In this document: one piece after another, positions 1-64,000 of the stretch
How positions within the stretch are numbered: the first letter of the stretch is position 1
How the letters are laid out: each line of letters begins with the position of its first letter
NCBI RefSeq assembly: GCF_008195825.1
Contig: NZ_CP043329.1
Location: 434,001-498,000 of the forward strand
DNA length: 64,000 nt
Source of the DNA: Pedobacter aquae
Lineage (GTDB): Bacteria > Bacteroidota > Bacteroidia > Sphingobacteriales > Sphingobacteriaceae
Direction: 5' to 3'
The notes under the pieces: model-generated
Databases searched by the model: none
What the model was told of the DNA's origin: nothing
What the model saw: only the letters and a program-made list of their open reading frames with translations
Translations under genes and position numbers: made by a program

Positions 1-1
1 T

Positions 2-514
2 CCGGATGACCCTGGCTTTTACGAGAAATTTTATTTTACTCCTGGAGATTTAGGTTACAAAGTTTTCAAAACCAAATTTGCTACTATTGGAGTTTTAATC
101 TGTTGGGATCAATGGTATCCAGAAGCGGCTAGGATTACCGCTTTAATGGGAGCAGAAATTTTATTTTACCCTACCGCAATTGGTTGGGCTAATACCCAAG
201 ACGAAGCAACTAATACCGAGCAATATAACGCTTGGCAAACCATACAACGTTCTCATGCTGTAGCTAATGGTGTACATGTGGTAAGTGTAAACAGGGTAGG
301 TGAAGAAGCTGGTTTAAGATTTTGGGGAGGTTCTTTTATCTCTAACCCTTTCGGGAGCTTAATTTATAAAGCTTCACATGATGATGAAGAAATTATTGTA
401 GAAGAATTAGATTTGGCAAAATCAGATAATTACAGAACACATTGGCCTTTCTTACGCGACAGAAGAATTGATTCTTACCAACCCATTGTGAAAAGGTATA
501 TTGATGAAGATTGA
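2..514 (+). CDS. aguB: N-carbamoylputrescine amidase, C-terminal part (cut by window edge)
   Basis: This nitrilase-superfamily enzyme hydrolyses N-carbamoylputrescine to putrescine, CO2 and ammonia, the last step of the agmatine route to putrescine. The frame is open from base 2 and encodes 170 residues. It contains the nucleophile motif ICWDQWYPE (Cys at about residue 40 of the visible part) followed by a typical EAAR helix. Family members are usually about 290-300 residues, so roughly 120 N-terminal residues, with the catalytic Glu and Lys, lie outside the window. The next pathway gene, agmatine deiminase, lies 400 bp downstream on the same strand, which supports this call over other carbon-nitrogen hydrolases. 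The two genes are separated by an inserted four-helix-bundle gene. Confidence 0.93.
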   Translation, partial: PDDPGFYEKFYFTPGDLGYKVFKTKFATIGVLICWDQWYPEAARITALMGAEILFYPTAIGWANTQDEATNTEQYNAWQTIQRSHAVANGVHVVSVNRVGEEAGLRFWGGSFISNPFGSLIYKASHDDEEIIVEELDLAKSDNYRTHWPFLRDRRIDSYQPIVKRYIDED

Positions 515-544
515 TAAGTCTGAAGTCTGATGACCGTTGACCGC
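515..544 (-). repeat. 30-bp degenerate repeat, left inverted copy (copy A)
   Basis: It begins with TAAGTC directly after the aguB stop codon. Its reverse complement matches bases 991-1020 at 21 of 30 positions and bases 63029-63058 at 23 of 30, counted by eye without gaps. The shared core reads GGTCAKCAGACT with a GACTTA end. With the copy at 991-1020 it brackets the four-helix-bundle gene in inverted orientation. Confidence 0.7.
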
Positions 545-560
545 AGTCTAAAATATTTTT

Positions 561-914
561 ATGGCATTTAAATTCGAAAGTCTTAAAGTTTGGCAAAAAG
601 CCATCGACTTGTCGGTAGCTATTGATTTACTTACAAAATCTTTTCCTAAAGAAGAATTGTATATCCTAACCTCACAAATGAAAAGAGCTTGTGATTCAAT
701 TTCTTTGAATATAGCCGAGGGAAGTACAAACCAATCTAATGCAGAGTTTGCAAGATTTTTATCATATGCTATTCGTTCAAATATAGAGGTTGTCAGTTGT
801 CTTCACTTAGCAATAAAAAGAGAGATTATGAATCAAGGTGATTTTGATTCTATTTATAAACAGTGTGAAGAGATTCATGCTATGCTTATTGCATTAAAGA
901 AATCATTAAAATGA
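561..914 (+). CDS. four-helix-bundle protein (S23 / IVP / Avd-type)
   Basis: This 117-residue, almost entirely helical protein has the hallmarks of the TIGR02436 four-helix-bundle family, known from 23S rRNA intervening sequences and related to the Avd accessory protein of diversity-generating retroelements. Visible hallmarks are the N-terminal F-x-x-L-K-V-W-Q-K-A segment, a central R-A-x-D-S-I-S-x-N-I-A-E-G stretch (about residues 43-54) and a following F-x-R-F-L-S-Y-A-x-R-S motif. Basic side chains on the bundle are consistent with nucleic-acid binding, but the cellular role is unknown. The gene sits between two genes of one pathway. Its stop overlaps the aguA start by 4 nt, and inverted repeat copies lie at 515-544 and 991-1020. 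No rRNA or reverse transcriptase is nearby. Confidence 0.9.
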   Translation: MAFKFESLKVWQKAIDLSVAIDLLTKSFPKEELYILTSQMKRACDSISLNIAEGSTNQSNAEFARFLSYAIRSNIEVVSCLHLAIKREIMNQGDFDSIYKQCEEIHAMLIALKKSLK

Positions 915-2047
915 AATATTCAGCAAGCCAGCAGACCGATAATAGCAAACTGTCGACTCAAGGTGACAATACAAGTGTCCCAACCAATCAGCGGACAGCG
1001 GACGGCAGACTTTCAACTCACTTGAAAGGCTACTCTTTCCCACCAGAGTGGGCGCCACATGAAGCAACATGGCTTTCTTGGCCGCATAAGGAAGCAAGTT
1101 GGCCGGGTAAAATAGATATGATTTATCCTAGATATGCGGAGTTTATCAAATATTTAGCGCTTTCTGAAAAAGTTAGAATAAATGTAAAAGACGAAGCAAT
1201 GAAAGCTTTTGCGTTAAAGCATATTGAGGCCGCTGGGGCTGATTTATCGCAAATAGAGTTTTATTTTAATCCTAGTAACGATGCTTGGTGCCGAGATCAT
1301 GGTCCGGCTTTCTTGATAAACCCAAATGCGGCTCAAAAGAAAGTTATTGTTGATTGGGGATTTAATGCTTGGGGTGGTAAATATCCTCCTTTTGATTTGG
1401 ATGATGTTATCCCAACTAAAATAGCCGAGCATTTTAATATTCCTGTTTATCATCCTGGTATCATTATGGAAGGTGGCTCAGTAGAATTTAATGGTGCTGG
1501 CACTATCTTAACTTCTAGAAGTTGCTTGTTAAATGAGAATAGAAATCCACATCTTAACCAAGAACAAATAGAACAATACCTAAAAGATTATTATGGTGCC
1601 CAGCAAATTTTATGGGTTAGCGATGGTATAGTTGGGGATGATACCGACGGACATATTGATGATACAGTAAGATTCGTGAATGAAAATACCGTTTTAACTG
1701 TTGTTGAGGATAATCCGGAAGATGAAAACTACGAACTCTTGCAAACCAATTTAAGAGAATTGAAAGAGATGCGTTTACTAAATGGAGATGCACTTAATAT
1801 CATAGAATTGCCTATGCCAGATGCTGTTATTTTTGAAGATACGCGTTTACCTGCCTCATATGCTAATTTTTATATCAGCAATGGCCATGTGATAGTACCA
1901 ACTTACCGTTGCGATAAAGATAAAATTGCTTTAGAAATTATAGCTAAATGCTTTCCTGATAGAGAAACTATTGGGATAGATTCAACAGATATCATTTGGG
2001 GGCTGGGAAGTTTCCATTGTTTAAGTCAGCAAGAGCCCTTGGTTTAA
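911..2047 (+). CDS. aguA: agmatine deiminase with repeat-derived N-terminus
   Basis: This peptidylarginine-deiminase-fold enzyme converts agmatine to N-carbamoylputrescine and ammonia, feeding the aguB product. It has 378 residues. The catalytic fold starts at about residue 40 (FPPEWAPHEATWLSWPH). The active-site elements are visible: WCRDHGP, MEGGSVEFNG, DGHIDD and the nucleophile Cys370 in FHCLSQQ. The usual family start lies just before the FPPEW segment. Here about 37 extra polar residues are encoded by repeat sequence (roughly 918-1021). No ATG occurs between 911 and the conserved core, so translation begins at ATG 911, overlapping the upstream stop, or at the in-frame TTG 1022. The catalytic domain looks intact. 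Confidence 0.93.
   Translation: MKYSASQQTDNSKLSTQGDNTSVPTNQRTADGRLSTHLKGYSFPPEWAPHEATWLSWPHKEASWPGKIDMIYPRYAEFIKYLALSEKVRINVKDEAMKAFALKHIEAAGADLSQIEFYFNPSNDAWCRDHGPAFLINPNAAQKKVIVDWGFNAWGGKYPPFDLDDVIPTKIAEHFNIPVYHPGIIMEGGSVEFNGAGTILTSRSCLLNENRNPHLNQEQIEQYLKDYYGAQQILWVSDGIVGDDTDGHIDDTVRFVNENTVLTVVEDNPEDENYELLQTNLRELKEMRLLNGDALNIIELPMPDAVIFEDTRLPASYANFYISNGHVIVPTYRCDKDKIALEIIAKCFPDRETIGIDSTDIIWGLGSFHCLSQQEPLV
991..1020 (+). repeat. 30-bp degenerate repeat, right copy inside aguA (copy B)
   Basis: This copy lies in the coding sequence for the atypical N-terminus of agmatine deiminase. It matches the valS copy at 63029-63058 at 21 of 30 positions and the reverse complement of 515-544 at 21 of 30. 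The surrounding 918-990 sequence is similar low-complexity text (cagcagacc, actcaaggtgac) and may be older, more degraded repeat units. Confidence 0.65.
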
Positions 2048-2060
2048 GATTAACTCACAA

Positions 2061-2193
2061 AAAAAAAGAGGCTGTCTCAAATTACCATTTTGTGTCAGGC
2101 TGAGCGGAGTCGAAGCCTTTTCTAAGCGTATCAGAGAACATTTCGACTCCGCTCAATGTGACAAATACTATTTTTGAGACAACCTCTTTTTTT
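2061..2193. terminator. large nested inverted repeat between convergent genes
   Basis: The outer arms are an A-run plus GAGGCTGTCTCAAA at 2061-2081 and TTTTTGAGACAACCTC plus a T-run at 2171-2193. The inner arms are TGTCAGGCTGAGCGGAGTCGAA (about 2092-2113) and TTCGACTCCGCTCAATGTGACA (about 2142-2163). The 133-bp structure separates aguA from the convergent M48 gene. It can act as a terminator in both directions because U-tracts follow on each strand. Confidence 0.8.
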
Positions 2194-2209
2194 ATAGTTA
2201 GGATATTCT

Positions 2210-3016
2210 TTACTTTCTGTAATAAGCTGCTGCTTCTGGCAGATATTTTTTAATATCATTAATACGGGTAGCATCACTTGGGTGGGTGCTTAAAAATTCA
2301 GGTGGTTTTTGACCATTACTTTTAGCAGCCATTCTTTGCCAAAAATCTATAGCGCTAGCAGGGTCATATCCGGCCATAGCCATAAAAGTTAAGCCCAATC
2401 TATCAGCTTCAGATTCTTGTCTTCTAGAGTTTGGTAATAAAACTCCGGCTTGTGCGCCAATACCAAAAACTTGTTGAAAAACACCGTATCCGGCTTCTGA
2501 TTTTGTTACGGCAGCACCTGCTAAGGTACCTAAGCCTTGCGCAATCATGGTTTGCGAGTAACGTTCGCTAGAATGTTTCGCAATAGCATGAGCAATTTCA
2601 TGCCCCATAACGGTAGCTAAACCAGCATCTGTTAAAGTAACAGGTAAAATGCCTGTGTAAACAGCTACTTTACCACCTGGCATACACCAAGCATTAATAT
2701 CAGGACTTTGAACTAGGTTAAATTCCCATTGAAAGCCAGCAATTTGGTTTCCATAACCATTATCATTCATGTATTTGGTTACGGCGGCTGCTATTTTATT
2801 CCCAATGTCTTTAACTTTTCTGCTTTCTGCGGTGTTGTTAATAACTCTGTTTTTTGGGTCAGATAGGAATTCGCGGTAGCCTTGTGCCGCCATTTGATTC
2901 ATTTCAGTATCGCTTACCAAATTTGCTTGTCTTCTTCCTGTTAAAGGAACTGTAGAACAAGCGGTAAAAAGCGCTGTTAATGCAGCTACAGATAAAATTT
3001 TGATGGTTTTGTTCAT
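2210..3016 (-). CDS. M48-family zinc metalloprotease lipoprotein
   Basis: This 268-residue protein has a lipoprotein signal peptide with lipobox LFTAC (lipidated Cys20), so it should be membrane-anchored on the periplasmic side. The zinc motif HEIAH (His139, Glu140, His143) and the downstream ESEAD glutamate (about residue 203) are those of the M48 family (BepA/LoiP/Oma1-like). No transmembrane helices follow, which separates it from HtpX. Related proteins degrade or help fold misassembled envelope proteins. The substrate here is not known. The gene converges on aguA across the large hairpin and lies 16 nt downstream of plsY on the same strand, so co-transcription is likely. Confidence 0.92.
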   Translation of the reverse strand: MNKTIKILSVAALTALFTACSTVPLTGRRQANLVSDTEMNQMAAQGYREFLSDPKNRVINNTAESRKVKDIGNKIAAAVTKYMNDNGYGNQIAGFQWEFNLVQSPDINAWCMPGGKVAVYTGILPVTLTDAGLATVMGHEIAHAIAKHSSERYSQTMIAQGLGTLAGAAVTKSEAGYGVFQQVFGIGAQAGVLLPNSRRQESEADRLGLTFMAMAGYDPASAIDFWQRMAAKSNGQKPPEFLSTHPSDATRINDIKKYLPEAAAYYRK

Positions 3017-3032
3017 AAATAATGAATAAAAA

Positions 3033-3674
3033 TTACTTTTTCTTGAACAGATTAACTTTGGATTCTCTGCCTCGTAATAGGCGTTCTATGTTTTTCTGAT
3101 GTGTAACCAGTATCAACACACAAATACACATCCCGTAAATAACAATGGCTTTAACAGATACCTGATATACGAAAATAACACTCAAAGGGAAGGTAAAACC
3201 TGCCGAAATAGAACTTAATGATACGTATTTACTCACTAAAAGTACAACTGTAAAAACCAGAACACAAAGCAATGCTGCTGGCAGGTGAACGGCTAAAATC
3301 ATACCAAAGAGGGTTGCAATACCTTTACCGCCTCTAAAACCTGCGAAAACAGGAAAAAGATGTCCCATTACAGCAACTATACCTAAAGCTAATTGGTAAT
3401 TAACATATTGTACAGAATGCTCTGGTCCGGTTACAGATAGTCCAATAAAAAAGGCAAGATTTGTGGCTGTCCAGCCTTTAAGTATATCGATAATCATGAC
3501 AGGAATACCTGCTTTTTTACCTAATACCCTAAAAGTATTGGTAGCGCCAGCATTACCACTGCCATATTCTCTAACGTCTATCCCATAAAAAGCCTGCCCT
3601 ATCCAAACTGCAGAGGGGATAGAACCAAAAAGATAAGCTAATAATATTGCTCCTATAGAGTATATTGATATCAT
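3033..3674 (-). CDS. plsY: acyl-phosphate:glycerol-3-phosphate acyltransferase PlsY
   Basis: This 213-residue integral membrane enzyme has several hydrophobic helices. It transfers an acyl group from acyl-phosphate to glycerol-3-phosphate, the first step of phospholipid synthesis. The family motifs are present: GSIPSAVWIG near residue 17, GSGNAGATN near residue 39 and F-x-G-G-K-G-I-A-T near residue 112. The length matches the family. The C-terminus is basic (KVNLFKKK), as expected for a cytoplasmic tail. The gene lies between nadC and the M48 protease on the minus strand, with gaps of 56 and 16 nt, and probably shares their transcript. Confidence 0.96.
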   Translation of the reverse strand: MISIYSIGAILLAYLFGSIPSAVWIGQAFYGIDVREYGSGNAGATNTFRVLGKKAGIPVMIIDILKGWTATNLAFFIGLSVTGPEHSVQYVNYQLALGIVAVMGHLFPVFAGFRGGKGIATLFGMILAVHLPAALLCVLVFTVVLLVSKYVSLSSISAGFTFPLSVIFVYQVSVKAIVIYGMCICVLILVTHQKNIERLLRGRESKVNLFKKK

Positions 3675-3730
3675 GTATATGCAATTATATTAAATAGCTT
3701 TTTCTTTCTTGTATAAAAATGAAAATCATT

Positions 3731-4585
3731 TTATGAAATTAAAGCTTTAAGACTCATATCCAAGCTTTTAACAGAATGTGTTAATGCTCCCATAGAGATG
3801 TAATCTACACCACATTTTGCATAATCTATGGCATTTTCTGGTGTAATACCTCCAGAGGCTTCTGTTAAAACACTTTTATTCACCAGCTTAACAGCAGCTT
3901 TTAAATCATCAAAGCCAAAATTATCTAATAAAATTCTGTCTATGCCGCCGCAAGCCAAAACTTCTTCTAGTTCTTTGATATTTCTTACCTCAACTTCAAT
4001 TTGTAATTTTTTTTGATGTTGTTTGATATAAGATTGCGCTGCTTGTATAGCATTTTTAATTCCACCGGCATAATCCACATGATTATCTTTAATTAAAATC
4101 ATATCGTAAAGACCAAAACGGTGGTTAACGCCTCCCCCAATTTTAACAGCAAGTTTTTCTAGGTAACGTAAATTAGGTGTAGTTTTTCTGGTATCTAAAA
4201 CTTTGGTTAAGCTACCTTTTAATTTTTCTACAATTTGGTTTGTGGTGGTAGCTATACCGCTCATTCTTTGCATGGTGTTTAAAACCAATCTTTCGGCCAC
4301 CAAAATAGAGCGTACATTTCCGCTTACAACTAAAACAATATCTCCATGTTTAACCTTTTCGCCATCTTTTATGAAAACTTCTACGGTTAAATCTGCATCA
4401 ACTTCTTTAAAAATTTCTAAGGCAACTTCAACACCAGCTACAACTCCTTCATCTTTAATTAAAAGCTTAGCTTTCCCTTGTGCATCTACCGGGATAGTTG
4501 ATAAAGAAGTATGGTCTCCGTCTCCAATATCCTCAAGTAAAGCTGCTTTTATAAATGTTCCGATAATTTCTTTATCCAATTCCAT
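3731..4585 (-). CDS. nadC: nicotinate-nucleotide pyrophosphorylase (carboxylating)
   Basis: This 284-residue quinolinate phosphoribosyltransferase makes nicotinate mononucleotide from quinolinate and PRPP in de novo NAD synthesis. Substrate-binding motifs are visible: DTRKTTPNLR (about residues 131-140), HRFGLYDMILIKDNH (about 156-170), then the barrel strands carrying the E-x-E-V segment and the SGGI loop. Length and start (MELDKEIIGTFIKAALLEDIGDGDHTS) are typical. A consensus -7 box lies 14 nt upstream of the ATG (4600-4607, minus strand). The neighbouring genes plsY and the M48 protease follow in the same direction. nadA and nadB are not in the window. Confidence 0.97.
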   Translation of the reverse strand: MELDKEIIGTFIKAALLEDIGDGDHTSLSTIPVDAQGKAKLLIKDEGVVAGVEVALEIFKEVDADLTVEVFIKDGEKVKHGDIVLVVSGNVRSILVAERLVLNTMQRMSGIATTTNQIVEKLKGSLTKVLDTRKTTPNLRYLEKLAVKIGGGVNHRFGLYDMILIKDNHVDYAGGIKNAIQAAQSYIKQHQKKLQIEVEVRNIKELEEVLACGGIDRILLDNFGFDDLKAAVKLVNKSVLTEASGGITPENAIDYAKCGVDYISMGALTHSVKSLDMSLKALIS

Positions 4586-4599
4586 AAATTTTGAAAGCG

Positions 4600-4607
4600 C
4601 AAAAGTA
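4600..4607 (-). promoter_or_regulatory. Bacteroidota -7 promoter box for nadC
   Basis: On the minus strand the sequence is TACTTTTG, a full match to TAnnTTTG. Its last G is 14 nt before the nadC ATG, giving a leader of only about ten bases. Confidence 0.6.
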
Positions 4608-4626
4608 TAAAAATTTAAAACTGTTG

Positions 4627-5013
4627 CTAAGCTTTATTTTCTTCTATCCTTATTTGGTTAATTAAGAATTTACCACCCATATTTTTAAGTTCATAACTTA
4701 CCCTAAAATTACCTTTAGAAGTTGTTAATACCAAGACCCCGAACTTATAATTTGCATTAGAAATTACTTTATGGATAATTTTGGTAGCAATAGGAGGGTG
4801 TTTTAAAAAGAAATCTTTTAAAATAATTTCAGCTTGTGAGCCAGAGTAAATTTCTTCTTCATTTAAAATACTTAATTCAATAGTAGAAGAGAAATATTTC
4901 GATAATTCTTTGCTATTGCCGGTTTTAAAAGCATTAGAAACTTCATCGATAACATCAAAAGAGAGCGCAGTTTTAAATAAAAAGAGGAATAAAATAGTGA
5001 ATGCTGGTTTCAT
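4627..5013 (-). CDS. DUF4783 family secreted protein
   Basis: This 128-residue protein has an N-terminal hydrophobic signal segment (ILFLFLFKTALS) followed by an SnoaL/NTF2-like alpha+beta pattern: an acidic first helix, then alternating strands ending in FLINQIRIEE. It corresponds to the DUF4783 family, which in Bacteroidota is usually found next to nadC, as here. The signal peptide implies export to the periplasm. No catalytic residues can be pointed to and the function is unknown. It lies 41 nt upstream of nadC, but nadC has its own -7 box, so transcription may be only partly shared. Confidence 0.85.
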   Translation of the reverse strand: MKPAFTILFLFLFKTALSFDVIDEVSNAFKTGNSKELSKYFSSTIELSILNEEEIYSGSQAEIILKDFFLKHPPIATKIIHKVISNANYKFGVLVLTTSKGNFRVSYELKNMGGKFLINQIRIEENKA

Positions 5014-5107
5014 AAATGTTTGATTAATGAGCTAAAACTACATAAAAGATGCCATAAAATATTCTTGAATATAGCAATTTAAGGCTTAACCACTTCCCTT
5101 AAAATTA

Positions 5108-5115
5108 TATATTTG
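5108..5115 (+). promoter_or_regulatory. -7 promoter box for gpmI
   Basis: TATATTTG matches TAnnTTTG exactly. The box ends only 4 nt before the GTG start of gpmI, so the transcript is predicted to be leaderless or nearly so. Confidence 0.6.
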
Positions 5116-5119
5116 TACT

Positions 5120-6640
5120 GTGAAAAATAAAAAAGTTGCACTTATTATTCTTGACGGCTGGGGATACGGTCGTAAAGATACCTCAAATGCCATTAATGTG
5201 GCTAACACTCCTTTTTTCGATTCTTGTCTTCAAAAATATCCAAACAGTACGTTAGAAGCTTCTGGTTTAGCCGTTGGTTTGCCAGAAGGCCAAATGGGTA
5301 ACTCAGAAGTTGGCCACATGAATCTTGGTGCTGGGCGTGTAGTTTATCAGGAATTAGGGCGTATTAATAAAGCAGTAACCGATAAAGAATTTACTTCTAA
5401 CCAGGCTATCAAAAATGCTTTTGAGTATGCTAAAAAAGAAAATAAGGATGTTCATTTTATTGGATTAGTTTCTGATGGAGGCGTACATTCACACATTAAC
5501 CACCTTAAAGGTTTATGTGATACAGCACAAGATTTTGGTTTAGAAAATGTGTTTATTCATGCCTTTTTAGATGGTAGAGATACAGACCCAAATTCTGGAT
5601 TAGGTTTTATAACCGAGCTGAATGATCATTTACAACATACATCAGCAAAATTAGCCTCTGCCATTGGTAGGTATTACGCCATGGATAGGGATAACCGTTG
5701 GGAGCGTGTGAAATTAGCTTATGATTTATTGGTTAAAGCAGAAGGTAAGAAAGTAGACGCCATTACTAATGGTATACAAGAATCTTACGAAGAAGGTGTA
5801 ACCGATGAATTTATAAAACCTTTGGTAGTTTGCAATCAAGATGGTAATCCTACAGCAACTATTAAAGACGGCGATGTGGTCATCTGTTTCAACTTTAGAA
5901 CAGACCGCGGACGGGAGATAACTTTAGCCTTATCGCAAAAAGCATTTCCAGAGTATGATATGAAGCCTTTGGATTTGTATTATGTTACCATGACTAGTTA
6001 TGATGAAACTTTTCAAAAAGTTAATGTAGCTTTTGGTAAGGATGATTTAGTGATGACCTTAGGCGAGGTTATAGAGCAAGCAGGTAAAAATCAAATCAGA
6101 ATTGCTGAAACAGAGAAATATCCGCATGTTACTTTCTTCTTCTCTGGCGGTAGAGAGAAAGAGTTTAAAAACGAAAAAAGGTTGTTAATTCCTTCTCCTA
6201 AAGTAGCTACTTATGATTTGCAACCGGAAATGAGCGCTCATGGAATTACCGAAGCTATTATTCCTGAATTGCTTGCAGAATGGCCAGATTTTATTTGCCT
6301 AAATTTTGCTAACCCAGATATGGTTGGGCATACAGGCGTATTTGATGCTGTTGTTAAGGCTGTAGAAACGGTAGACCATTGTGCAGAGCAAGTTGTTAAA
6401 GCTGGTTTAGAACACGGTTATTCTTTCATCATCATCGCAGACCACGGTAATGCAGATTTTATGGTGAATGAAGATGGTTCTGCCAATACTGCCCATAGCA
6501 CAAATTTGGTTCCTTGTATCTTAATTGATGAAGACTATAAACAAGTTAAAAATGGTAAACTTGGAGATATAGCACCAACCATACTTAAAATAATGAATAT
6601 TAGTATCCCAGCAGAAATGACTGGTGATATATTGGTATAA
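5120..6640 (+). CDS. gpmI: 2,3-bisphosphoglycerate-independent phosphoglycerate mutase
   Basis: This 506-residue alkaline-phosphatase-superfamily enzyme interconverts 3- and 2-phosphoglycerate in glycolysis and gluconeogenesis using two Mn ions. Metal and nucleophile motifs are visible: the first Asp in LDGWGYG (Asp12), the Ser62 nucleophile in GNSEVGHMN, the HAFLDGRDT and GRYYAMDRD loops, and the C-terminal metal ligands in NPDMVGHTG, ADHGN and AHST. The start codon is GTG at 5120. It fits the normal N-terminus and lies directly after a -7 box at 5108-5115. The next gene's ATG follows the stop codon without a gap, so the two are translationally linked. Confidence 0.97.
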   Translation: MKNKKVALIILDGWGYGRKDTSNAINVANTPFFDSCLQKYPNSTLEASGLAVGLPEGQMGNSEVGHMNLGAGRVVYQELGRINKAVTDKEFTSNQAIKNAFEYAKKENKDVHFIGLVSDGGVHSHINHLKGLCDTAQDFGLENVFIHAFLDGRDTDPNSGLGFITELNDHLQHTSAKLASAIGRYYAMDRDNRWERVKLAYDLLVKAEGKKVDAITNGIQESYEEGVTDEFIKPLVVCNQDGNPTATIKDGDVVICFNFRTDRGREITLALSQKAFPEYDMKPLDLYYVTMTSYDETFQKVNVAFGKDDLVMTLGEVIEQAGKNQIRIAETEKYPHVTFFFSGGREKEFKNEKRLLIPSPKVATYDLQPEMSAHGITEAIIPELLAEWPDFICLNFANPDMVGHTGVFDAVVKAVETVDHCAEQVVKAGLEHGYSFIIIADHGNADFMVNEDGSANTAHSTNLVPCILIDEDYKQVKNGKLGDIAPTILKIMNISIPAEMTGDILV

Positions 6641-7165
6641 ATGATTAGGATAATCTTTATCATATCCGCACTATGCTTAACAGCCTGTTCTTTCTCTAGC
6701 GAAAAAAAGGAACAGGCTGTTAATTATTACAATCTTCAAAAATACTTTTCTGAAGAAGCTGCAAGGTTAAATAAAATTAAACCAGGCATCAATAAAACAG
6801 TAAAGCATAATCATGATTCTGAAACGCAAAACATAAAAGTTGAAGATTGGATAAAAGAACTTGCTCTTTTTGTAGAATCAGATATTAATAAAGTTGCTTG
6901 GAAAAACAGCTATCAAAAAGATAGTACCAGCACCAGCATTACCTATACGGCTAAAGAAGAAAACCTAAGAACAAGAAAAATTATTATCCTACTTAAAGGA
7001 AATAAGCCATCAAAAATTAGCATCACTAACCAAACAAAAAACAACCTATATTATACCAAAGAAGAGCTTATTTATATTCCAGATTCTCTGTATCAGATAG
7101 AGAAATTTCAGGATGTAAAAGTTCTAGGTATTAATAATTATCAGGTAAAAGGTGTTTTTAATTAA
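6641..7165 (+). CDS. hypothetical lipoprotein
   Basis: This 174-residue protein has a signal peptide and lipobox (LTACS, Cys16), so it is probably anchored in the envelope. The mature part is polar and lysine-rich, alternating helix (about residues 28-75) and beta-strand stretches. I recognise no family. The ATG follows the gpmI stop immediately, indicating co-transcription and translational coupling. The stop overlaps the stop of the convergent TPR gene by 4 nt. A perfect 14-bp inverted repeat lies just downstream of the lipobox codons (6677-6723). Confidence 0.8.
   Translation: MIRIIFIISALCLTACSFSSEKKEQAVNYYNLQKYFSEEAARLNKIKPGINKTVKHNHDSETQNIKVEDWIKELALFVESDINKVAWKNSYQKDSTSTSITYTAKEENLRTRKIIILLKGNKPSKISITNQTKNNLYYTKEELIYIPDSLYQIEKFQDVKVLGINNYQVKGVFN
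6677..6723. repeat. perfect 14-bp inverted repeat inside a coding region
   Basis: The arm TTAACAGCCTGTTC (6677-6690) is exactly complementary to GAACAGGCTGTTAA (6710-6723), with a 19-nt loop. It starts 36 nt after the lipoprotein ATG. In mRNA it would form a strong stem over the codons joining signal peptide and mature protein. Confidence 0.75.
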
Positions 7166-7779
7166 TTTTTGATGTTGATAAGTAGTTGTTTCGATTTTTC
7201 TATCTGAGATACAATGTCTTTTCTAGCAGCATTTTCGGCTAACACTTTCTTTAAATCGGTTATAGATGAGTTAGCGGCAGAAATAGCAGCGTTTTTGTTA
7301 TAAATTTCATTCACTTTCTGACTTTTAAAAACGCTATACTCTTGATAAGCTAAACCTCTGTTCTGATAAAATTTCATATCGCTAGGCGTAAGCTCAATCC
7401 CACTAGAGAAATCTTTAATCGCACCAAGTAAAAGTTCTTCTTTCTCAGGATTTTTATAATCTTTTATTTGCCCGCTTAAAAGCATTTTGGCTTTGCCTCT
7501 GTAGTAATAAGCAATAGCTTCTGAGGGTTTATAAGCAACTAATTTATCAAAAGACTCTATAGATTTTTTATAATTTGAAGAATGATAATAAGCATAACCT
7601 AAAAGATAAAGTGCATTCATATTGCCATGATCTTGTTTAACGGCTTGTTCAAAAAAAGTGGCAGCAGAATTAAAATCGCCATTCATCATGGCTTTTTGTC
7701 CAAGGCGCTCAAACGGAGTTTGTGCAACTAGGGTAATGGGTAAAATAAGGGCTAAAACTGTTAAAATTTTAAATTTCAT
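7162..7779 (-). CDS. tetratricopeptide-repeat protein, secreted
   Basis: This 205-residue protein has a cleavable signal peptide (MKFKILTVLALILPITLVAQ) and at least three TPR motifs from about residue 34 to 140, with the A-x-x-F-x-x-A and A-L-Y-L-L-G-Y-A-Y-Y patterns. A C-terminal coiled-coil-like helix follows. It should act as a periplasmic or outer-membrane scaffold for protein contacts. No enzymatic motif is present and no specific partner can be inferred. It is transcribed convergently with the gpmI-lipoprotein pair (4-nt overlap of stop codons) and divergently from lon across a 261-bp intergenic region. Confidence 0.85.
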   Translation of the reverse strand: MKFKILTVLALILPITLVAQTPFERLGQKAMMNGDFNSAATFFEQAVKQDHGNMNALYLLGYAYYHSSNYKKSIESFDKLVAYKPSEAIAYYYRGKAKMLLSGQIKDYKNPEKEELLLGAIKDFSSGIELTPSDMKFYQNRGLAYQEYSVFKSQKVNEIYNKNAAISAANSSITDLKKVLAENAARKDIVSQIEKSKQLLINIKN

Positions 7780-7945
7780 GGATATAACTATTACCTTTAA
7801 AGATTGTAATTTGTGAAAATATAAACGATTTTAAAACTAAAATATTTCTTTTTCTGAACTTTAATTACCTGACTATTTTTCAGTTTATAAAAATGAGGAT
7901 ATAAGGAAATAGCCATATAAAGTAATTATTAACTTAAAATTACCA

Positions 7946-7961
7946 TTGGCATAACTGTTGA
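7946..7961 (+). promoter_or_regulatory. possible sigma-54-type promoter upstream of lon
   Basis: TTGGCA at 7946-7951 and TTG at 7958-7960 have the exact -24/-12 spacing (TGGCA, six bases, TTG). The -12 element is TTGA rather than TTGC. No TAnnTTTG box was seen in this region. A start site near 7973 would give a leader of about 68 nt. A 14-bp direct repeat (ATTCAAAAATAAGA) occurs at 7973-7986 and 8023-8036. Confidence 0.35.
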
Positions 7962-8040
7962 ACTTCTATGTAATTCAAAAATAAGAGGCAAATAGGTGAT
8001 TTTAATCTGCCAATTTGGCTTTATTCAAAAATAAGATGAT

Positions 8041-10518
8041 ATGAGCAAATTCGATCCGTTCGATTTTAACCAAGCAATGCCACTAATAAATGAAGATACC
8101 GAGTTTTTTCCTCTCATGTCTCAAGAAGACGAGGAAGAAATGAATAATGAACAAACACCAGAAATTCTTGCTGTTTTGCCTTTAAGAAACACAGTTTTAT
8201 TTCCCGGAGTTGTTATTCCTATTACTGTTGGTAGAGATAAATCTATCAAACTGATAAAAGACGCTTATAAAGGCGATAGGGTTATTGGTGTAGTAGCGCA
8301 GCTAGATGTGAGTGTAGAAGACCCAAAATTTGACGAGCTTAATAAAGTAGGTACAGTAGCTGTTATTGTTAAAATGCTACAAATGCCAGATGGCAACACA
8401 ACCGTAATTATACAAGGTAAAAACCGTTTCGAGCTGGTAGAGCAAGTACAATCAGAACCTTATATAAAAGCTACAGTAAAGAAATTTGAAGAGGTAAGAC
8501 CTAAGGTTGATAAAGAATTTAAAGCAATGGTTTCATCTGTTAAAGAGATGGCTATGCAAATTATTCAGTTTTCGCCTAATATACCTTCTGAAGCTGCTAT
8601 AGCCATTAAAAATATAGAAAGCGTACCTTTTTTAATCAACTTTATTTCTTCTAATATGAATGCTTCTGTTGCAGACAAACAGGGCATGTTAGAAGTTGCA
8701 AATTTGAGAGACAGGGCTCAAATGGTTTTAAGCCATTTAAGTACCGAGCTGCAATTATTAGAACTTAAAAATCAAATCCAAAACAAAGTAAAGGTTGATT
8801 TAGACAAGCAACAAAGAGATTACTTCTTAAATCAGCAACTTAAAACTATTCAGGAAGAATTAGGTGGTAATTCTCCAGACATGGAAATTGAAGATTTAAG
8901 AAAAAAAGGCAGTAAGAAGCAATGGTCTAAAGAAACAGCTAATCATTTCCACAAAGAGCTGGATAAATTAGCCAGAATGAATCCGGCTGCAGCCGATTAC
9001 TCTGTGCAAATTAACTATTTAGAAGTGTTGTTAGATTTGCCTTGGCAACAATTTACCAAAGATAATTTCGATTTAAAAAGAGCTCAAAAAATATTAGATA
9101 AAGACCATTACGGTTTAGATAAGGTTAAAAAGCGTATTGTAGAATATTTAGCTGTTTTAAAGCTAAAACATAATATGAAAGCACCTATTTTATGCTTGGT
9201 CGGCCCTCCGGGAGTTGGTAAAACTTCATTAGGGAAATCTGTAGCTAAGGCTTTAGGTAGAAAATATGTAAGAATGGCTTTAGGTGGTGTAAGAGATGAA
9301 GCCGAGATAAGAGGACATCGTAAAACTTACATCGGCGCTATGCCTGGGCGTATTATCCAATCTATTAAAAAGGCAGGAAGTTCAAATCCGGTTTTTGTTT
9401 TAGATGAGATTGATAAAGTAGGAAATGATTTTAGAGGCGACCCTTCATCGGCTTTATTAGAGGTTTTAGATCCAGAACAAAATAACGCTTTTAATGATCA
9501 TTTTGTAGAGTTAGATTATGATTTATCTAACGTGATGTTTATTGCAACAGCCAATTCTTTAAGTAGCATACAACCTGCTTTGTTAGACAGGATGGAAATT
9601 ATCGAAGTAAATGGCTATACGATTGAGGAAAAAATAGAAATCGCTAAAAAGCATCTTTTACCAAAACAGAAAGAGCAACACGGTTTAAAAACTAAAGATG
9701 TGAATTTAAAATCATCAGTAATAGAGAAAATTATTGAGGATTATACACGCGAATCTGGTGTTAGAGGTTTAGAGAAAAAAATAGGTTCTGTAGTACGTGG
9801 TGCCGCTACCAAGTTAGCCATGGAAGAAGCCTATAATGTTAATTTTACGGCTCATGATATAGAAGAAATTTTAGGAGCACCTATTTTTGATAAAGACTTT
9901 TATGAAGGTAATGAAGTTGCTGGCGTGGTAACAGGCTTAGCCTGGACACAAGTTGGCGGCGATATTTTGTTTATAGAAGCCAGTTTAAGCCCTGGGAAAG
10001 GCAGAATGACCTTAACCGGAAATTTAGGAGATGTAATGAAAGAATCTGCTACCATTGCCATGGCTTATATGAGAGCACATGCTGCAAGTTTTGGTATAGA
10101 ATATCGGGTTTTTGACCAATGGGATATTCATATTCACGTACCAGCCGGTGCAACACCAAAAGATGGCCCTTCTGCTGGTATAACCATGTTAACAGCTTTA
10201 ACATCTGCATTTACACAAAGAAAAGTTAAAGAACATTTAGCCATGACGGGCGAGATTACCCTACGTGGGAAAGTTTTGCCAGTAGGTGGTATTAAAGAAA
10301 AGATTTTAGCAGCTAAAAGAGCAAATATTAAGGATATCATTTTATCTAAAGCAAACAGAAAAGATATTTTGGAGATTAAAGAGTCTTACATTAAAGATTT
10401 GAGCTTCCATTACGTAACCGATATGACAGAAGTTATAAAACTAGCTTTGTTAGATAAGAAGGTGAAAAATGCCTTAGATATTGTTTATAAAGAGCCTATT
10501 AAGCAAAAACAAGACTAA
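8041..10518 (+). CDS. lon: ATP-dependent endopeptidase La (Lon)
   Basis: This 825-residue cytoplasmic AAA+ protease degrades misfolded and regulatory proteins. Order of domains: an acidic leader of about 40 residues, the LON substrate-binding domain (about 42-240), a helical region, the AAA+ module with Walker A GPPGVGKT (about residue 387) and Walker B VFVLDEIDK, and the C-terminal Ser-Lys protease domain with Ser711 in PKDGPSAGITM and Lys754 in GGIKEK. Residue spacing between the dyad (43) equals that of the E. coli enzyme. A rho-independent terminator follows immediately. The upstream region lacks the common -7 box but holds a sigma-54-like element. Confidence 0.98.
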   Translation: MSKFDPFDFNQAMPLINEDTEFFPLMSQEDEEEMNNEQTPEILAVLPLRNTVLFPGVVIPITVGRDKSIKLIKDAYKGDRVIGVVAQLDVSVEDPKFDELNKVGTVAVIVKMLQMPDGNTTVIIQGKNRFELVEQVQSEPYIKATVKKFEEVRPKVDKEFKAMVSSVKEMAMQIIQFSPNIPSEAAIAIKNIESVPFLINFISSNMNASVADKQGMLEVANLRDRAQMVLSHLSTELQLLELKNQIQNKVKVDLDKQQRDYFLNQQLKTIQEELGGNSPDMEIEDLRKKGSKKQWSKETANHFHKELDKLARMNPAAADYSVQINYLEVLLDLPWQQFTKDNFDLKRAQKILDKDHYGLDKVKKRIVEYLAVLKLKHNMKAPILCLVGPPGVGKTSLGKSVAKALGRKYVRMALGGVRDEAEIRGHRKTYIGAMPGRIIQSIKKAGSSNPVFVLDEIDKVGNDFRGDPSSALLEVLDPEQNNAFNDHFVELDYDLSNVMFIATANSLSSIQPALLDRMEIIEVNGYTIEEKIEIAKKHLLPKQKEQHGLKTKDVNLKSSVIEKIIEDYTRESGVRGLEKKIGSVVRGAATKLAMEEAYNVNFTAHDIEEILGAPIFDKDFYEGNEVAGVVTGLAWTQVGGDILFIEASLSPGKGRMTLTGNLGDVMKESATIAMAYMRAHAASFGIEYRVFDQWDIHIHVPAGATPKDGPSAGITMLTALTSAFTQRKVKEHLAMTGEITLRGKVLPVGGIKEKILAAKRANIKDIILSKANRKDILEIKESYIKDLSFHYVTDMTEVIKLALLDKKVKNALDIVYKEPIKQKQD

Positions 10519-10522
10519 TTTC

Positions 10523-10548
10523 AAAACCCGGTTTAAGCCGGGTTTTTT
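10523..10548 (+). terminator. rho-independent terminator after lon
   Basis: The stem AAAACCCGG (10523-10531) pairs with CCGGGTTTT (10538-10546) around a 6-nt loop, followed by a T-rich tract. It begins five bases after the lon stop codon. Confidence 0.85.
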
Positions 10549-10637
10549 GTTTTAGGTAAAATAAATGACTTCACTCATATTTTATTATATAATTAAAAGC
10601 TATTTTTACCTTATATAAGCCATTTATCAATTACACC

Positions 10638-11471
10638 ATGATTAAGATTCTTGTTACTACCGATTTTTCTGCCAATTCTAAAGCAGCTATAAGATTTGCA
10701 ATTAAATTTGCTACCCAATATCCAGAGGTTTCTTTAACATTTTTTCATTCTTACCATATTTTAAAACCTACTTCATACAGTGATGCTAAATTTGAAGCTT
10801 ATGAAAAAGCACAGAAAGAAAACATCAGTAAGAGGTTAGAAAAGTTTGTTAAAGATGTTTACCATGCAGCAGGTATAAAGCCATCGGAAATAAATTGTGT
10901 TTGTAGAGAATCTGTAGTGGCGCATAGTAATATCATGAATTATGCTGAACATGAAGGTTTTAATTTTATTGCCATAGGAACCAGAGGAGCAGGGAAAATA
11001 GAAAAGTTATTTGGTACACATACCTCTTATGTCATTAGCCAATCGTCTATTCCGGTAATTGCTGTGCCTAAAACCTATCGTTCAAGAGATATAGAAAGTG
11101 TTTTATATGCTTCAGATTTAATTAATTTAGATAAGGAGTTAGATCAGGTGATTGATTTTGCTAAGCCTATTGATGCTAAAATAGAGGTTGTACATTTTGG
11201 TTTTCCTTCTGATATAGCCAAGAAAGTAAAATTAGCAGAAGAAAAAGTTAAAAATCATTCTGATTATCCGGTAGAATTTCATGTTCAGCCAAGCGATTTT
11301 ATAAAATCTTTAGTTGATAATATAGAAACAGCAGTTAAAAGAAGTAAACCTTCTATGTTGGTAATGTTTACAGATCAAAAAGTTTCTTTTTTCAAAAAGA
11401 TGTTATTCTCTGGTAATACAGAAGAATTTGCTTTAAATACAAGAGTTCCTTTATTAGTTTATCCAAAATAA
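10638..11471 (+). CDS. universal stress protein, tandem UspA domains
   Basis: This 277-residue protein has two UspA folds. The first (about 1-150) begins KILVTTDFSANSKAAIRFA and carries the ATP-binding loop GTRGAGKIEKLFGTHTS, ending in the strand PVIAVP. The second (about 155-277) is more divergent and lacks a clear glycine-rich loop, ending in RVPLLVYPK. Tandem UspA proteins bind nucleotides and are linked to stress survival, but the specific role here is unknown. The next gene begins 1 nt after its stop codon, so the two are probably co-transcribed. Confidence 0.92.
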   Translation: MIKILVTTDFSANSKAAIRFAIKFATQYPEVSLTFFHSYHILKPTSYSDAKFEAYEKAQKENISKRLEKFVKDVYHAAGIKPSEINCVCRESVVAHSNIMNYAEHEGFNFIAIGTRGAGKIEKLFGTHTSYVISQSSIPVIAVPKTYRSRDIESVLYASDLINLDKELDQVIDFAKPIDAKIEVVHFGFPSDIAKKVKLAEEKVKNHSDYPVEFHVQPSDFIKSLVDNIETAVKRSKPSMLVMFTDQKVSFFKKMLFSGNTEEFALNTRVPLLVYPK

Positions 11472-11472
11472 A

Positions 11473-12438
11473 TTGAAGAGAATTTTTGTTTGTTTATTGT
11501 GTTTGATAGGTGTCAAAGCATCAATAGCTCAATCTCAAAAGTCTAATTATAAACATGAATTTGGTTTTAGAAGTGAAAATGATGCTTATTTAGCTACAGA
11601 CCAGGATAAGTATTATACCAATGGATTGTTTTTAACTTTTAGGTCGGCTGTAAATCCTTCACAAAAACAAGATACCAGTAAGCTAGTAAAGAAAATATGG
11701 GCTTTAAGTATAGCTCATAAAATGTATAATGCAAGTTCTGGAAGTGTTGTAAATATATCTAGAGTTGATAGACCGTTTGCAGCTTATGCTTATGCCTCAA
11801 CTTCTTTAAATTATTACTTTAAGAAGGAAACTGTTTTAGGTGCAGAACTACAAGGCGGTATTCTTGGCCCTTCAGCTAAGGGAGAGGAAGGACAGAAATT
11901 TTATCATGAGGTTTTTGGTTTTTATGATATTAATGGCTGGCAATTTCAGGTTAAAGATGAAATAGGGGTAAACCTTCTCCTCAATTACCAAAGTCTTTTA
12001 TATCGTAACCAAAAACGTACTTTAGATTTTAGTTTGCCCGTAGAAGCTAAAATTGGCAATACCTTTACAGGTTTAAAAGCCGGCTTGTTGTTTAGAACTG
12101 GAGCATTAAATCCGCTGTACCATAGCGTGGCAACAAATAGTTTTGTGTCTACTTATAAAGAAGCTCATGCTAAAGAAAAAGAGCTTTACTTTTTTTTAAA
12201 GCCATCTTTAGATGTTGTTATTTATGATGCTACCATTTCTGGAGGTTTATTTAGGGATGATAAAGGACTGGTAGTTTATGATACTAAGCCTTTAGTTTTT
12301 TCGCAAGAAATGGGTGTGGCTTTTGCGCAAAAAAGGTGGACTTTCAATTTCTCTTTAATCTTTAAATCAAAGGAATTAAAAAGTGTGGCAAATGCACATC
12401 AATATGGGATCATAGATTTGTATTACAGGTTTAACTAA
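11473..12438 (+). CDS. LpxR-family (DUF2219) outer-membrane protein
   Basis: This 321-residue protein has a signal peptide (MKRIFVCLLCLIGVKASIAQ) and the N-terminal pattern of the lipid A 3'-O-deacylase LpxR family: FRSENDAY, then DKYYTNGLFLTF. Beta-strand periodicity continues to a terminal aromatic strand (IDLYYRFN), typical of an outer-membrane barrel. LpxR removes the 3'-acyloxyacyl group of lipid A. Catalysis is not proven here, since only the Asn/Asp-rich segment can be checked by eye. Translation starts at TTG 11473, one base after the uspA stop. No in-frame ATG lies before the conserved segment. The stop overlaps the convergent arfB gene by 4 nt. Confidence 0.8.
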   Translation: MKRIFVCLLCLIGVKASIAQSQKSNYKHEFGFRSENDAYLATDQDKYYTNGLFLTFRSAVNPSQKQDTSKLVKKIWALSIAHKMYNASSGSVVNISRVDRPFAAYAYASTSLNYYFKKETVLGAELQGGILGPSAKGEEGQKFYHEVFGFYDINGWQFQVKDEIGVNLLLNYQSLLYRNQKRTLDFSLPVEAKIGNTFTGLKAGLLFRTGALNPLYHSVATNSFVSTYKEAHAKEKELYFFLKPSLDVVIYDATISGGLFRDDKGLVVYDTKPLVFSQEMGVAFAQKRWTFNFSLIFKSKELKSVANAHQYGIIDLYYRFN

Positions 12439-58278: not shown

Positions 58279-58670
58279 ATCAGTTGCCAGTATTCAGTTT
58301 CCTGTTACCAGTTGAATATCATTTTGGACATTCCTAAAGGTTTTTGAATTTTGATTTTTTCCTTTTGAATTTAAATCAGTTGCCAGTTCTGAGTTGCCAG
58401 TTCTAGATGAAAATTTTAGACGTTCTTTAAGGTTTTTTTAATTTTTAATTTTTCCTTTTGAATTTTAAATCAGTTACCAGTTCTGAGTTTCCTGTTTTCA
58501 GTTCTGGATGTCTATTTTGGGCGTTATTAAAGGTTTTTGAATTTTTAATTTTTCCTTTTGAATTTAAATCAGTTACCAGTTCTGAGTTTCCTGTTTCCAG
58601 TTCTAGATGAAAATTTTAGACGTTCTTAAGGGTTTTTTAATTTTTAATTTTTCCTTTTTAATTTTTAATT
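58279..58670. repeat. four tandem degenerate units of about 94-103 bp
   Basis: Units start at 58279, 58375, 58469 and 58568. Each begins ATCAGTTRCCAGT, continues with CTGAGTTtCCtGTT-type words, a gAtgaaaATTTTagaCgTT block and ends in a T/A-rich tract TTTTTCCTTTTgAATTT. The array fills most of the 536-bp gap between the aldo/keto reductase and mnmD and stops at the mnmD stop codon. I see no open frame or RNA signal in the rest of the gap (58137-58278). Confidence 0.8.
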
Positions 58671-58672
58671 CT

Positions 58673-59356
58673 TCAGCCTTTCACAGCTCTAAGCATTTCG
58701 CGTTTTCCAGCTGCTCCTGGAGCTTTTTCTATCTTCATGTTCAAAGATTTCATGATGCGTTTTAAATCGCCAGTAATGGCATATGTAACAAAAACACCAC
58801 CTGGTTTTAAGAAAGAAATGGTTTTAGTGATAGCTTCTTTGGTCCACATTTCTGGTTGATTAGAAGAGGCAAAAGCATCAAAATAAATAACATCAAAAAG
58901 CTGTGGGCTAGAGAAATTTTCTAGGGTAGTAGGGGCAATATGCAATTGGCAAAATTCATTTAAAGTAACGCTCTTTTGTAAGGCTTCGTCATACAGTTTG
59001 GTAAACATCCCCCATGTATTGGCAGAAACAATTTCTTGGTAAGCTGTTTCTTCAATCAAACCTAAATTTAACGGATACGCTTCTATACCTACATATTGGA
59101 GTTGTATTTCTTTGCCTTTACAAAAATCGGCAGTTAGCAAAAAGTTTAAGCCTGTACCAAAGCCGATTTCTAATACAGCAACCTCAGTATGTTGTTTATC
59201 TGCTAAGTAATAACGTAAGCCAGAATTTAAGAATACATGGTTGCTTTCTTGTAAAGCACCATTTCTGCTATGGTAATTTTCTTTGATAATAGGGTGATAG
59301 ATGGTTTTAGATCCATCTGCTGTGGTAACAACCGTTAGCCTGTCAGGCTCTAACAT
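58673..59356 (-). CDS. mnmD: tRNA 5-methylaminomethyl-2-thiouridine methyltransferase MnmD
   Basis: This 227-residue SAM-dependent methyltransferase completes the mnm5s2U34 modification of tRNA anticodons. It corresponds to the methyltransferase half of MnmC, without the oxidase half. The SAM-binding strand-loop is VAVLEIGFGTGLNFLL (about 62-77). The DUF752-type motif FDVIYFDAFASSNQPEMWT (about 140-158) and the ending EKAPGAAGKREMLRA are typical. Length fits stand-alone MnmD of Bacteroidota. Confidence 0.92.
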   Translation of the reverse strand: MLEPDRLTVVTTADGSKTIYHPIIKENYHSRNGALQESNHVFLNSGLRYYLADKQHTEVAVLEIGFGTGLNFLLTADFCKGKEIQLQYVGIEAYPLNLGLIEETAYQEIVSANTWGMFTKLYDEALQKSVTLNEFCQLHIAPTTLENFSSPQLFDVIYFDAFASSNQPEMWTKEAITKTISFLKPGGVFVTYAITGDLKRIMKSLNMKIEKAPGAAGKREMLRAVKG

Positions 59357-62404: not shown

Positions 62405-64000
62405 ATGAGCATTTCTAAAACCTATAACCCCAAAGAGGCAGAGGCAAAGTGGTACCAATATTGGCTAGATCATAAATTCTTTAAATCTGTTCCGGATGAA
62501 AGAGAGCCTTACACCATTGTTATTCCTCCGCCAAATGTTACAGGGGTATTACACATGGGGCACATGCTTAACAATACTATCCAAGATGTATTGATTCGTA
62601 GAGCCAGAATGAAAGGTAAGAATGCTTGTTGGGTACCTGGTACAGACCATGCCTCTATTGCTACCGAGGCCAAAGTTGTTGCCATGCTTAAAGAAAAGGG
62701 CATCAACAAAAAAGATATTTCTAGAGAAGAATTTTTGAAATATGCTTACGAGTGGAAAGACAAATACGGAGGTATCATCCTAGAGCAATTAAAAAAACTA
62801 GGTGCTTCTTGCGATTGGGATAGAACAGCTTTTACCATGGATCCTGCTTTGTCTGAAGCCGTGATAGATACTTTTATCCATCTACATAAAAAAGGACTTA
62901 TTTATCGTGGTGTAAGAATGGTAAACTGGGACCCTAAAGGTTTAACAGCCGTTTCTGATGAGGAAGTCATCCGTAAAGAGGTAAACCAAAAGTTGTATTA
63001 TATTAGGTATTTCTTAAGTCCACAGTCAGCAGACGGCGGTCAGCAGACTACTGACTTACAATACTTAATAATAGCTACCACCCGTCCAGAAACTATCATG
63101 GCTGATGCCGCCATTTGTATCAACCCAAATGATGAACGTTACAGCCATTTAAAAGGTAAAAAAGTCTTTATTCCATTAATCAATAAAGAGATTTCGGTTA
63201 TAGCCGATGAATATGTGGATATGGAGTTTGGTACCGGATGTTTAAAAGTAACGCCAGCACATGATTTAAACGATTATGAATTGGGTATTAAACATCATTT
63301 AGAAGTTATTGATATTTTAAATGATGATGGTACTTTAAACGAAAAAGCACAAATTTTAGTAGGCGAGGATAGGTTTATCGCTCGTAAGAAAATAGCTATA
63401 TTACTAGAAGAAGCGGGGCATTTAGAAAAAGTTGAGGATTATAAATCTCAAATAGGTTTTTCTGAACGTACCGATGCCGCCATAGAACCTAAACTTTCTA
63501 TGCAGTGGTTCTGTAAAATGGCAGAAATGGCTGGCCCGGCCTTAGATTATGTAAATAATGGTGATGTTAAACTGATACCAGATAAATTCATTAATACCTA
63601 CCGCCATTGGATGGAGCATGTGAAAGATTGGTGTATTTCTCGTCAATTGTGGTGGGGACAGCAAATACCGGCTTGGTATGCGCCTAATGGAGAAGTTGTA
63701 GTTGCTAAAACAGCCGAAGAGGCTCTAGATCAGTTTAAAAATCTAAAATCTGAATTCGCAAATCTAAAATCGAGCGATTTACGCCAAGACGAAGACGTTG
63801 TAGATACTTGGTTTTCTTCATGGTTGTGGCCGATATCGGTTTTTGATCCAACGGTTTGTGGTCATCCAGAAGCTAAAGGAAATGCCGACGTAAATTATTA
63901 TTACCCAACTAATGATTTGGTGACTGCACCAGAAATTTTATTTTTCTGGGTAGCCCGTATGATTATGGCTGGTCACGAGTTTAGAGGCGAAGTACCTTTC
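62405..64000 (+). CDS. valS: valyl-tRNA synthetase, N-terminal part (cut by window edge)
   Basis: The frame is open from ATG 62405 to the window end (532 residues; family members have about 870-950). It encodes a class I synthetase with the HIGH-type motif [10 protein letters not shown] (about 43-52), YEWKDKYGG, the start of the editing domain with [12 protein letters not shown] (about 223) and the ARMIMAG segment at the end of the visible part. The KMSKS loop is beyond the window. Residues about 204-219 ([15 protein letters not shown]) do not resemble a normal synthetase loop and coincide exactly with a short repeat (63015-63058). The frame stays open through it. Confidence 0.96.
63015..63058 (+). 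repeat. 44-bp repeat copy inside valS (copy C)
   Basis: The copy has inverted ends TAAGTC (63015-63020) and GACTTA (63053-63058). Its inner 30 bases (63029-63058) match the copy in aguA at 21 of 30 and the reverse complement of the copy after aguB at 23 of 30. It adds an in-frame loop to the valS product. Confidence 0.7.

Follow-up and report, generated by a model that had tools for sequence, protein, structure and literature searches.

Heptamer tandem repeats are known from cyanobacteria as STRRs, and RAYT transposase genes are flanked by inverted REP sequences. Other heptamer arrays have been described as well, including TAACTGA arrays, for which S1, Csp or CsrA were proposed as binders and no transfer mechanism is evident (PMC4679880), and the GGGAATC-type arrays of Xanthomonas and Nostoc (PMC4692102). 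23S rRNA genes, for example in Leptospira and Coxiella, contain intervening sequences (IVSs) with an S23/IVP reading frame, for which RNase III cleavage has been reported and the origin is unclear (PMC4990558). Structures of the S23/IVP family have been solved, and no function is established as far as we found. Here, we analyse a unit of ~506 bp located between aguB and aguA in a 64,000-nucleotide stretch of the Pedobacter aquae genome (contig NZ_CP043329.1, positions 434,001 to 498,000; hereafter the window), in which a gene of this family, encoding a four-helix-bundle protein, lies between inverted arrays of degenerate heptads. Heptamer repeats and rRNA IVSs are two old puzzles that may be one kind of element, because relatives of this gene are arranged alike in many bacterial phyla, and also within two 23S rRNA genes. 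We lean towards reading the unit (positions 515-1020) as a small autonomous IVS-like mobile element, whose arrays would pair in the transcript; the encoded protein probably reads the heptads.

The unit shares with the IVSs its protein family, a similar size (428 nt for the Coxiella IVS), inverted ends pairing around a reading frame, and transcription with the host RNA (PMC4990558). Unlike an IVS, it lies between operon genes and has heptad arrays as arms, and RNase III excision, reported for the IVSs, would extend to it by analogy. With the heptamer tandem repeats (STRRs, TAACTGA, GGGAATC) the arms have 7-bp units, a mostly intergenic location and a scattered taxonomic distribution in common; the published TAACTGA and GGGAATC arrays are described mainly as direct repeats (PMC4679880, PMC4692102), unlike the inverted arms here, and the main text of neither paper mentions 'S23' or 'four helix'. 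Text searches with partial literature coverage found no paper linking the S23/IVP family with heptamer arrays, and novelty is unproven. As in RAYT/REP systems, a gene is framed by a repeat in inverted orientation, solo copies of which are found elsewhere, but the Pfam search of the gene between the arms gives PF05635 as its sole match and hence no Y1 (HUH) transposase, and the repeat is a heptad array rather than a REP palindrome. Avd of the diversity-generating retroelements is a distant homologue (25% identity for a phage Avd match), and its resemblance to PF05635 has been noted (PMC10053308). Unlike in those retroelements, no reverse transcriptase (RT) lies beside the window gene, the single RVT_1 match of the genome being ~467 kb from this Avd-like gene; template and variable repeats were not searched for. 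For the one phage Avd gene checked, the inverted match of the flanks is not significant (score 11, z 2.2). The original prediction that no RT is involved agrees with two family-rich genomes, G140 (17 family matches) and G026 (14), neither of which has an RVT_1 match at E<=1e-3, and an RT partner is accordingly unneeded.

The predicted interruption of aguB and aguA by a unit with one four-helix-bundle gene is borne out by the open reading frame (ORF) at 561-914 together with its matches to PF05635 (E 3e-35) and TIGR02436 (E 1e-33), both above the cut-off (Table 1). Solved relatives of the protein are 2gsc and 2rld, with five chains per entry. The inverted ends (515-544 and 991-1020, 30 bp) match at 21 of 30 positions in a recount by hand, and their unit, unnoticed in the original prediction, is a degenerate 7-bp tandem repeat. 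Allowing up to three mismatches, the left-arm pattern matches the window three times (the left arm in two registers and the right arm; the valS copy is beyond its reach) versus none in 100 shuffles. A general repeat search of the window listed no inverted pair at the element and a strict period-7 scan missed both arms, because the arms are too degenerate. Taken alone, the window locus reaches a moderate inverted z of 3.2, under the cut of 4. The predicted RNA structure of the element contains 32 arm-arm pairs. No recognisable transposase or RT encoded by the element was found in the family search, and a PADLOC search for defence systems gave no match.

All eight four-helix-bundle family genes of the 3.85-Mb genome, the window gene among them, are bracketed by a degenerate repeat of their own, mostly with period 7, that is inverted on the far side (z at least 3.2 in 8/8 and at least 4 in 5/8). 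Since every family gene of the genome shows this layout, the observation at the window is real, and it is larger than originally thought. The supposed tie between this particular repeat and bundle genes held in part: a separate repeat accompanies each of the eight genes, and the link accordingly exists per element rather than per repeat, whereas the window repeat occurs at about 15 places, one of them at a family gene. A loose pattern for the window heptad marks, besides the element and valS, ~13 further places in the genome, some perhaps by chance and none at one of the eight family genes; this count merely lists places and has no valid control, because reversing the pattern leaves it almost unchanged. 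A few matches are of another heptad type (GTTGTCA-like), one of them inside an ORF. Copies spread genome-wide with no enrichment near bundle genes, which had been named as speaking against the prediction, were thus found for the window repeat and not for the layout as such. The genome also contains large heptad arrays with no family gene at C1:1075812-1076217 (L157) and 93369-95611 (L149), the former with a higher-order unit of ~42 bp just past a stop codon, on the coding strand.

For a broader comparison, the eight loci of this genome were combined with 30 from relatives (best-scoring, one per genome) and with the best 80 of 587 confirmed in named records, which span many phyla and include one archaeon. 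Of these 118 loci 117 were testable (L065, at a contig end, was dropped), near-duplicates included (L017 of L015; L109 repeats L095), and 200 ORFs from the same loci served as controls. At z>=4, an inverted match between the flanks was present for 71/117 family genes (26/38 in L001-L038, 45/79 in the remainder) versus 4/200 control ORFs. In a replication with 34 loci of six genomes from those records and a cyanobacterium, leaving out fragmentary or unfetched family matches, 26 passed; seven of the 34 had been tested already (2/7 pass), and among the new loci the count was 24/27. Two further genomes gave an inverted match in 14/19 loci and a direct one in 1/19. In the alphaproteobacterial class the family was found in 10/190 genomes, and 7/12 new loci reached z>=4 under a mononucleotide shuffle, which is the weaker shuffle; under the same shuffle, z was at least 8 in 6/7 plasmid loci (two near-duplicate pairs among them) and 1.7 in the seventh, L234. 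One cyanobacterial genome has heptad arrays near the six displayed family genes (of eight matches), with inverted z>=4 in 4/5 tested. Both neighbours are co-directional with the family gene at 91/110 loci, compared with 62/101 for control ORFs under slightly different ORF rules.

The flanks of family genes are dominated by period 7 (lags 7, 14 and 21) with a minor period 8: the best lag is 7 in 90/233 flanks and 8 in 19/233, versus 12/346 and 0/346 in control flanks, and among 120 arms, whose median length is 32 nt or 4.6 heptads, 84 have a best lag of 7 and 28 one of 8. Consensus units of period-7 arms contain AG in 58/84 cases and CT in 7/84, partly because the arms are G-rich, and among the 71 loci with z>=4, G outnumbers C in the upstream arm of 60 and is outnumbered by it in nine.

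The pairing of left and right arms is specific. Within eight genomes, the best right flank for a left flank was that of the same gene in 48/57 cases, with p from 5e-5 to 0.04: 6/8 in P. aquae itself (p 0.0001), 9/11 in G140, 8/9 in G026, 6/7 in G159, 6/7 in G156, 4/4 in G158, 6/6 in G154 and 3/5 in G151. This test used genes with complete loci rather than every family match (11/17 for G140, 9/14 for G026), omitting fragmentary matches, L207 (no ORF) and, in the last five genomes, loci below 2500 bases. At orthologous sites, true pairing also exceeded shuffled left-right pairing at aguB|aguA (p 0.00065), argC|argD (p 0.008) and fadB-like|thiolase (p 0.0001), with nine loci each, and p was 0.08 in a fourth set of four loci; the 130-nt windows used here cut off some distant arms, and left-left and right-right means were left unused as they contain coding sequence. 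These comparisons support a joint turnover, in which both arms would change together while gene and place persist. In predicted RNA structures, at least 12 arm-arm pairs form in 137/166 cases versus 75/166 with a foreign right arm.

Arms of elements at different sites are more alike when the proteins are similar (102 pairs versus the rest, p 0.0005, the floor of 2000 permutations). At protein similarity 0.65-0.80, 6/9 different-site pairs pass the arm cut versus ~2% of distant pairs, and one cross-phylum pair, L222 from a cyanobacterium and L200 from the family to which the window's genome belongs, has TTGACAA-type arms in common. An earlier Mantel test (r 0.195, p 0.0005) mixed in same-site pairs and is superseded by this comparison, which supports, at the level of sequence similarity, arms that travel with their gene. 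Among pairs with similar proteins, 325/468 lack a matching neighbour (duplicates and loci lacking a neighbour counted), from which it follows that the genes change place over evolutionary time.

The prediction also stated that no rRNA is involved, which is true at the window locus, where an Rfam scan of positions 1-12000 gave no match and places the element outside 23S rRNA, and untrue for the family, since two armed relatives lie inside 23S rRNA. One (L236), on a plasmid-borne rRNA operon of Azospirillum lipoferum, is located within the Rfam large-subunit (LSU) match 1283-4481 and has the arms CAGAGGA CGGATGA CAGAGGA CGGAGGA CAG plus inverse. The other (L287), from the alphaproteobacterial-class search, has the arms CAGAGGG CAGAAAC CAGAGGT CAGAGAT CAGAAAT CAGATAT CAG plus inverse within LSU rRNA (z 18.7, mononucleotide shuffle). 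Both sets of arms end ahead of the identical rRNA sequence GGTAGCGGAGCGTTC, and the insertion presumably lies in helix 45. These are two cases among 32 loci scanned with Rfam (20 + 12).

Insertion sites are variably occupied. AguA was matched in 47/61 genomes, and among the best 30, examined for the aguB|aguA junction, aguB was found in 28; the orthologous family gene is present at 9/28 junctions and absent at 19/28, so that the predicted empty sites in related strains exist. One such site belongs to a genome of the same genus, in which 48 nt separate the aguB stop from the aligned AguA part. The nine filled sites are spread over five genera; by reading, the gene has an arm on either side at all nine, and the heptads differ. 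An aguB-bundle-aguA order conserved across distant genera without the repeat, the other observation that would have spoken against the prediction, was not found. The solo copy in valS is real and is an insert in frame, present at the same place in 8/11 comparable genomes of the genus (P. aquae included) and absent in three, a twelfth genome with only a partial match not being counted. In L272 and L275 the two halves of the valS insert read as inverted, with no gene present. The suggested layout of a mobile cassette therefore stands as regards the gene, the inverted repeats and the empty sites, whereas no sign of recent transposition with a target-site duplication was found. Of the terminal features of insertion sequences and miniature inverted-repeat transposable elements, inverted ends are present, and the empty aguB|aguA sites are too diverged to reveal a target-site duplication. 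In L187 and L189, the aguB|aguA spacer contains further small inserts that have inverted halves but lack a gene.

We propose that the element consists of a four-helix-bundle gene flanked by two inverted arrays of about five oriented heptads each, and that it is of a widespread kind whose place is in transcribed spacers, for the most part between operon genes reading in one direction and sometimes in 23S rRNA. By pairing in the transcript of the host, the two arrays may enclose the gene in a stem, like the arms of 23S rRNA IVSs, and an RNase III-type cleavage could then free the element from the transcript, which would make insertion into an operon cheap for the host. The encoded oligomer probably recognises the heptads and would take part in the spread of the element, and gene-less inserts such as that in valS may be non-autonomous derivatives. 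An intervening sequence acting at the RNA level is favoured because the genes lie in the sense of their neighbours and because the arms are predicted to pair. The agreement between the five chains per solved entry and the approximately five heptads of an arm is suggestive of, though no proof for, one heptad per subunit. If the proposal is true, housekeeping operons of many phyla would harbour one of the smallest elements that carry a gene, and the heptad sequence should predict protein specificity. The data thus tie together the S23/IVP family, rRNA IVSs and heptamer arrays, each of which is now directly testable.

Several observations weigh against this proposal. The cut of z>=4 was missed by 46/117 family genes, and the majority of matches to the window-heptad pattern lie away from family genes. 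Direct-orientation matches are enriched too (14/117 family genes versus 4/200 controls, and 10/34 in the replication), and L221/L092 has direct arrays only. At orthologous sites the own right arm was the single best in only 3/9 loci at aguB|aguA, 2/9 at argC|argD and 5/9 at fadB-like|thiolase, and the closest different-site pairs mostly involve one element, L023. Pairing of the arms is mostly at the consensus level, a heptad shuffle of the left arm lowering the match significantly in only 19/71 loci. Mismatches between the arms, read as sense RNA, comprise 104 wobble-compatible and 148 non-pairing transitions (p 0.007, in the wrong direction); with no G.U preference, selection for an RNA stem is not supported. 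Further, the heptads look oriented (AG versus CT), which a plain stem would not need. Near-identical copies of an element at two sites were not seen, and a recent transposition of a Calothrix plasmid pair was rejected, as the copies share one 3.6-kb block. The lack of wobble preference, the consensus-level pairing and the apparent heptad orientation suggest a protein that reads the heptads, as RNA or DNA.

In one alternative, which we consider possible though rather unlikely, the unit is a mobile element at the DNA level. The heptad arrays would then be transposon ends to which the oligomer binds in double- or single-stranded DNA by a REP/RAYT-like logic, and the RNA stem would be a by-product of the inverted ends. 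Inward-oriented heptads with an AG core (partly reflecting G-rich composition), arms without wobble preference that tend to go with the gene, scattered solo arrays and presence or absence at sites would all be expected of such ends, whereas the lack of a recognisable transposase or RT in the element does not fit, and the preference for co-directional transcribed spacers and the two rRNA cases point to the transcript. In addition, the 7-bp period does not fit the DNA helical repeat. Somewhat more doubtful is a broader idea of actively written arrays, in which the four-helix-bundle system would copy or re-set both arms together and spread a protein-specific seven-letter code in genomes with and without the gene; a single process would then account for the arms of rRNA IVSs and for the heptamer repeats found in cyanobacteria, Bacteroidota and further phyla.

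The persistence of orthologues in place, in five genera at aguB|aguA and also at two further sites in operons, together with the chain number of the solved relatives and the matching arm length, would also be in line with a domesticated regulator, which binds heptads in the mRNA (TRAP-like, one per subunit), sets the expression of host genes and keeps its site through host benefit. The patchy occupation of the aguB|aguA junctions, the many unrelated host operons, with a CRISPR operon and rRNA among the locations, and the inverted right array, needless for a single-strand binder, make this improbable. That the arrays are passive simple repeats arising by slippage, with the gene merely among them, is very improbable: heptanucleotides are the most abundant repeats of 5-11 nt in most genomes (PMC4679880) and solo arrays are frequent in this one, but the rarity of inverted matches at control ORFs and the preference for the own right flank refute it unless these results fail to replicate.

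Table 1. Coordinates of the features in the window.
Feature	Position	Strand	Basis and remarks
aguB, 3' part, host gene upstream of the element	1..514	+	ORF and synteny; name from the original prediction and general knowledge; stop at 514
Left arm, heptads AGTCTGA AGTCTGA TGACCGT TGACCGC, right after the aguB stop	515..544	+	Sequence reading
Four-helix-bundle gene (S23/IVP, TIGR02436), 117 aa	561..914	+	Family matches; solved relatives 2gsc, 2rld
Right arm, left-arm heptad family as reverse complement; on the minus strand AGTCTGC CGTCCGC TGTCCGC	989..1020	-	
aguA, agmatine deiminase family	911..2047	+	ORF and family matches; codons ahead of the homology hold the right arm
Gene-less heptad insert, in frame inside valS	63014..63058	+	

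Similarity to the AguA models begins only at codon 37-43 of the aguA frame; as this frame is open from 911, about 36 codons (911-1020), the right arm included, precede the AguA-matching part. The host-gene names (agu, arg, fad-like, thiolase and val) are those we assume from the original prediction and ORF reading, AguA alone being family-checked. In genome G026 (C25:25239-28637), the family genes L193, L195 and L201 occupy seemingly adjacent spacers in a single arginine operon (ahead of argC, argC|argD and argD|argF), the right arm of L201 not being clear. On a plasmid of Pseudanabaena galeata, a family gene with AAAGCTA arms (L235:2492-2851) is located in a type I-D CRISPR operon, with cas6 on one side and cas4 on the other. 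Two matches to the Acido-Lenti-1 RNA (RF01687; L091:4026-4071 and 4599-4644) are located ~1.3 kb or less from a family gene. Elsewhere in the window, positions 58434-58676 contain two AT-rich period-7 stretches, ~200 bp apart and in like orientation.
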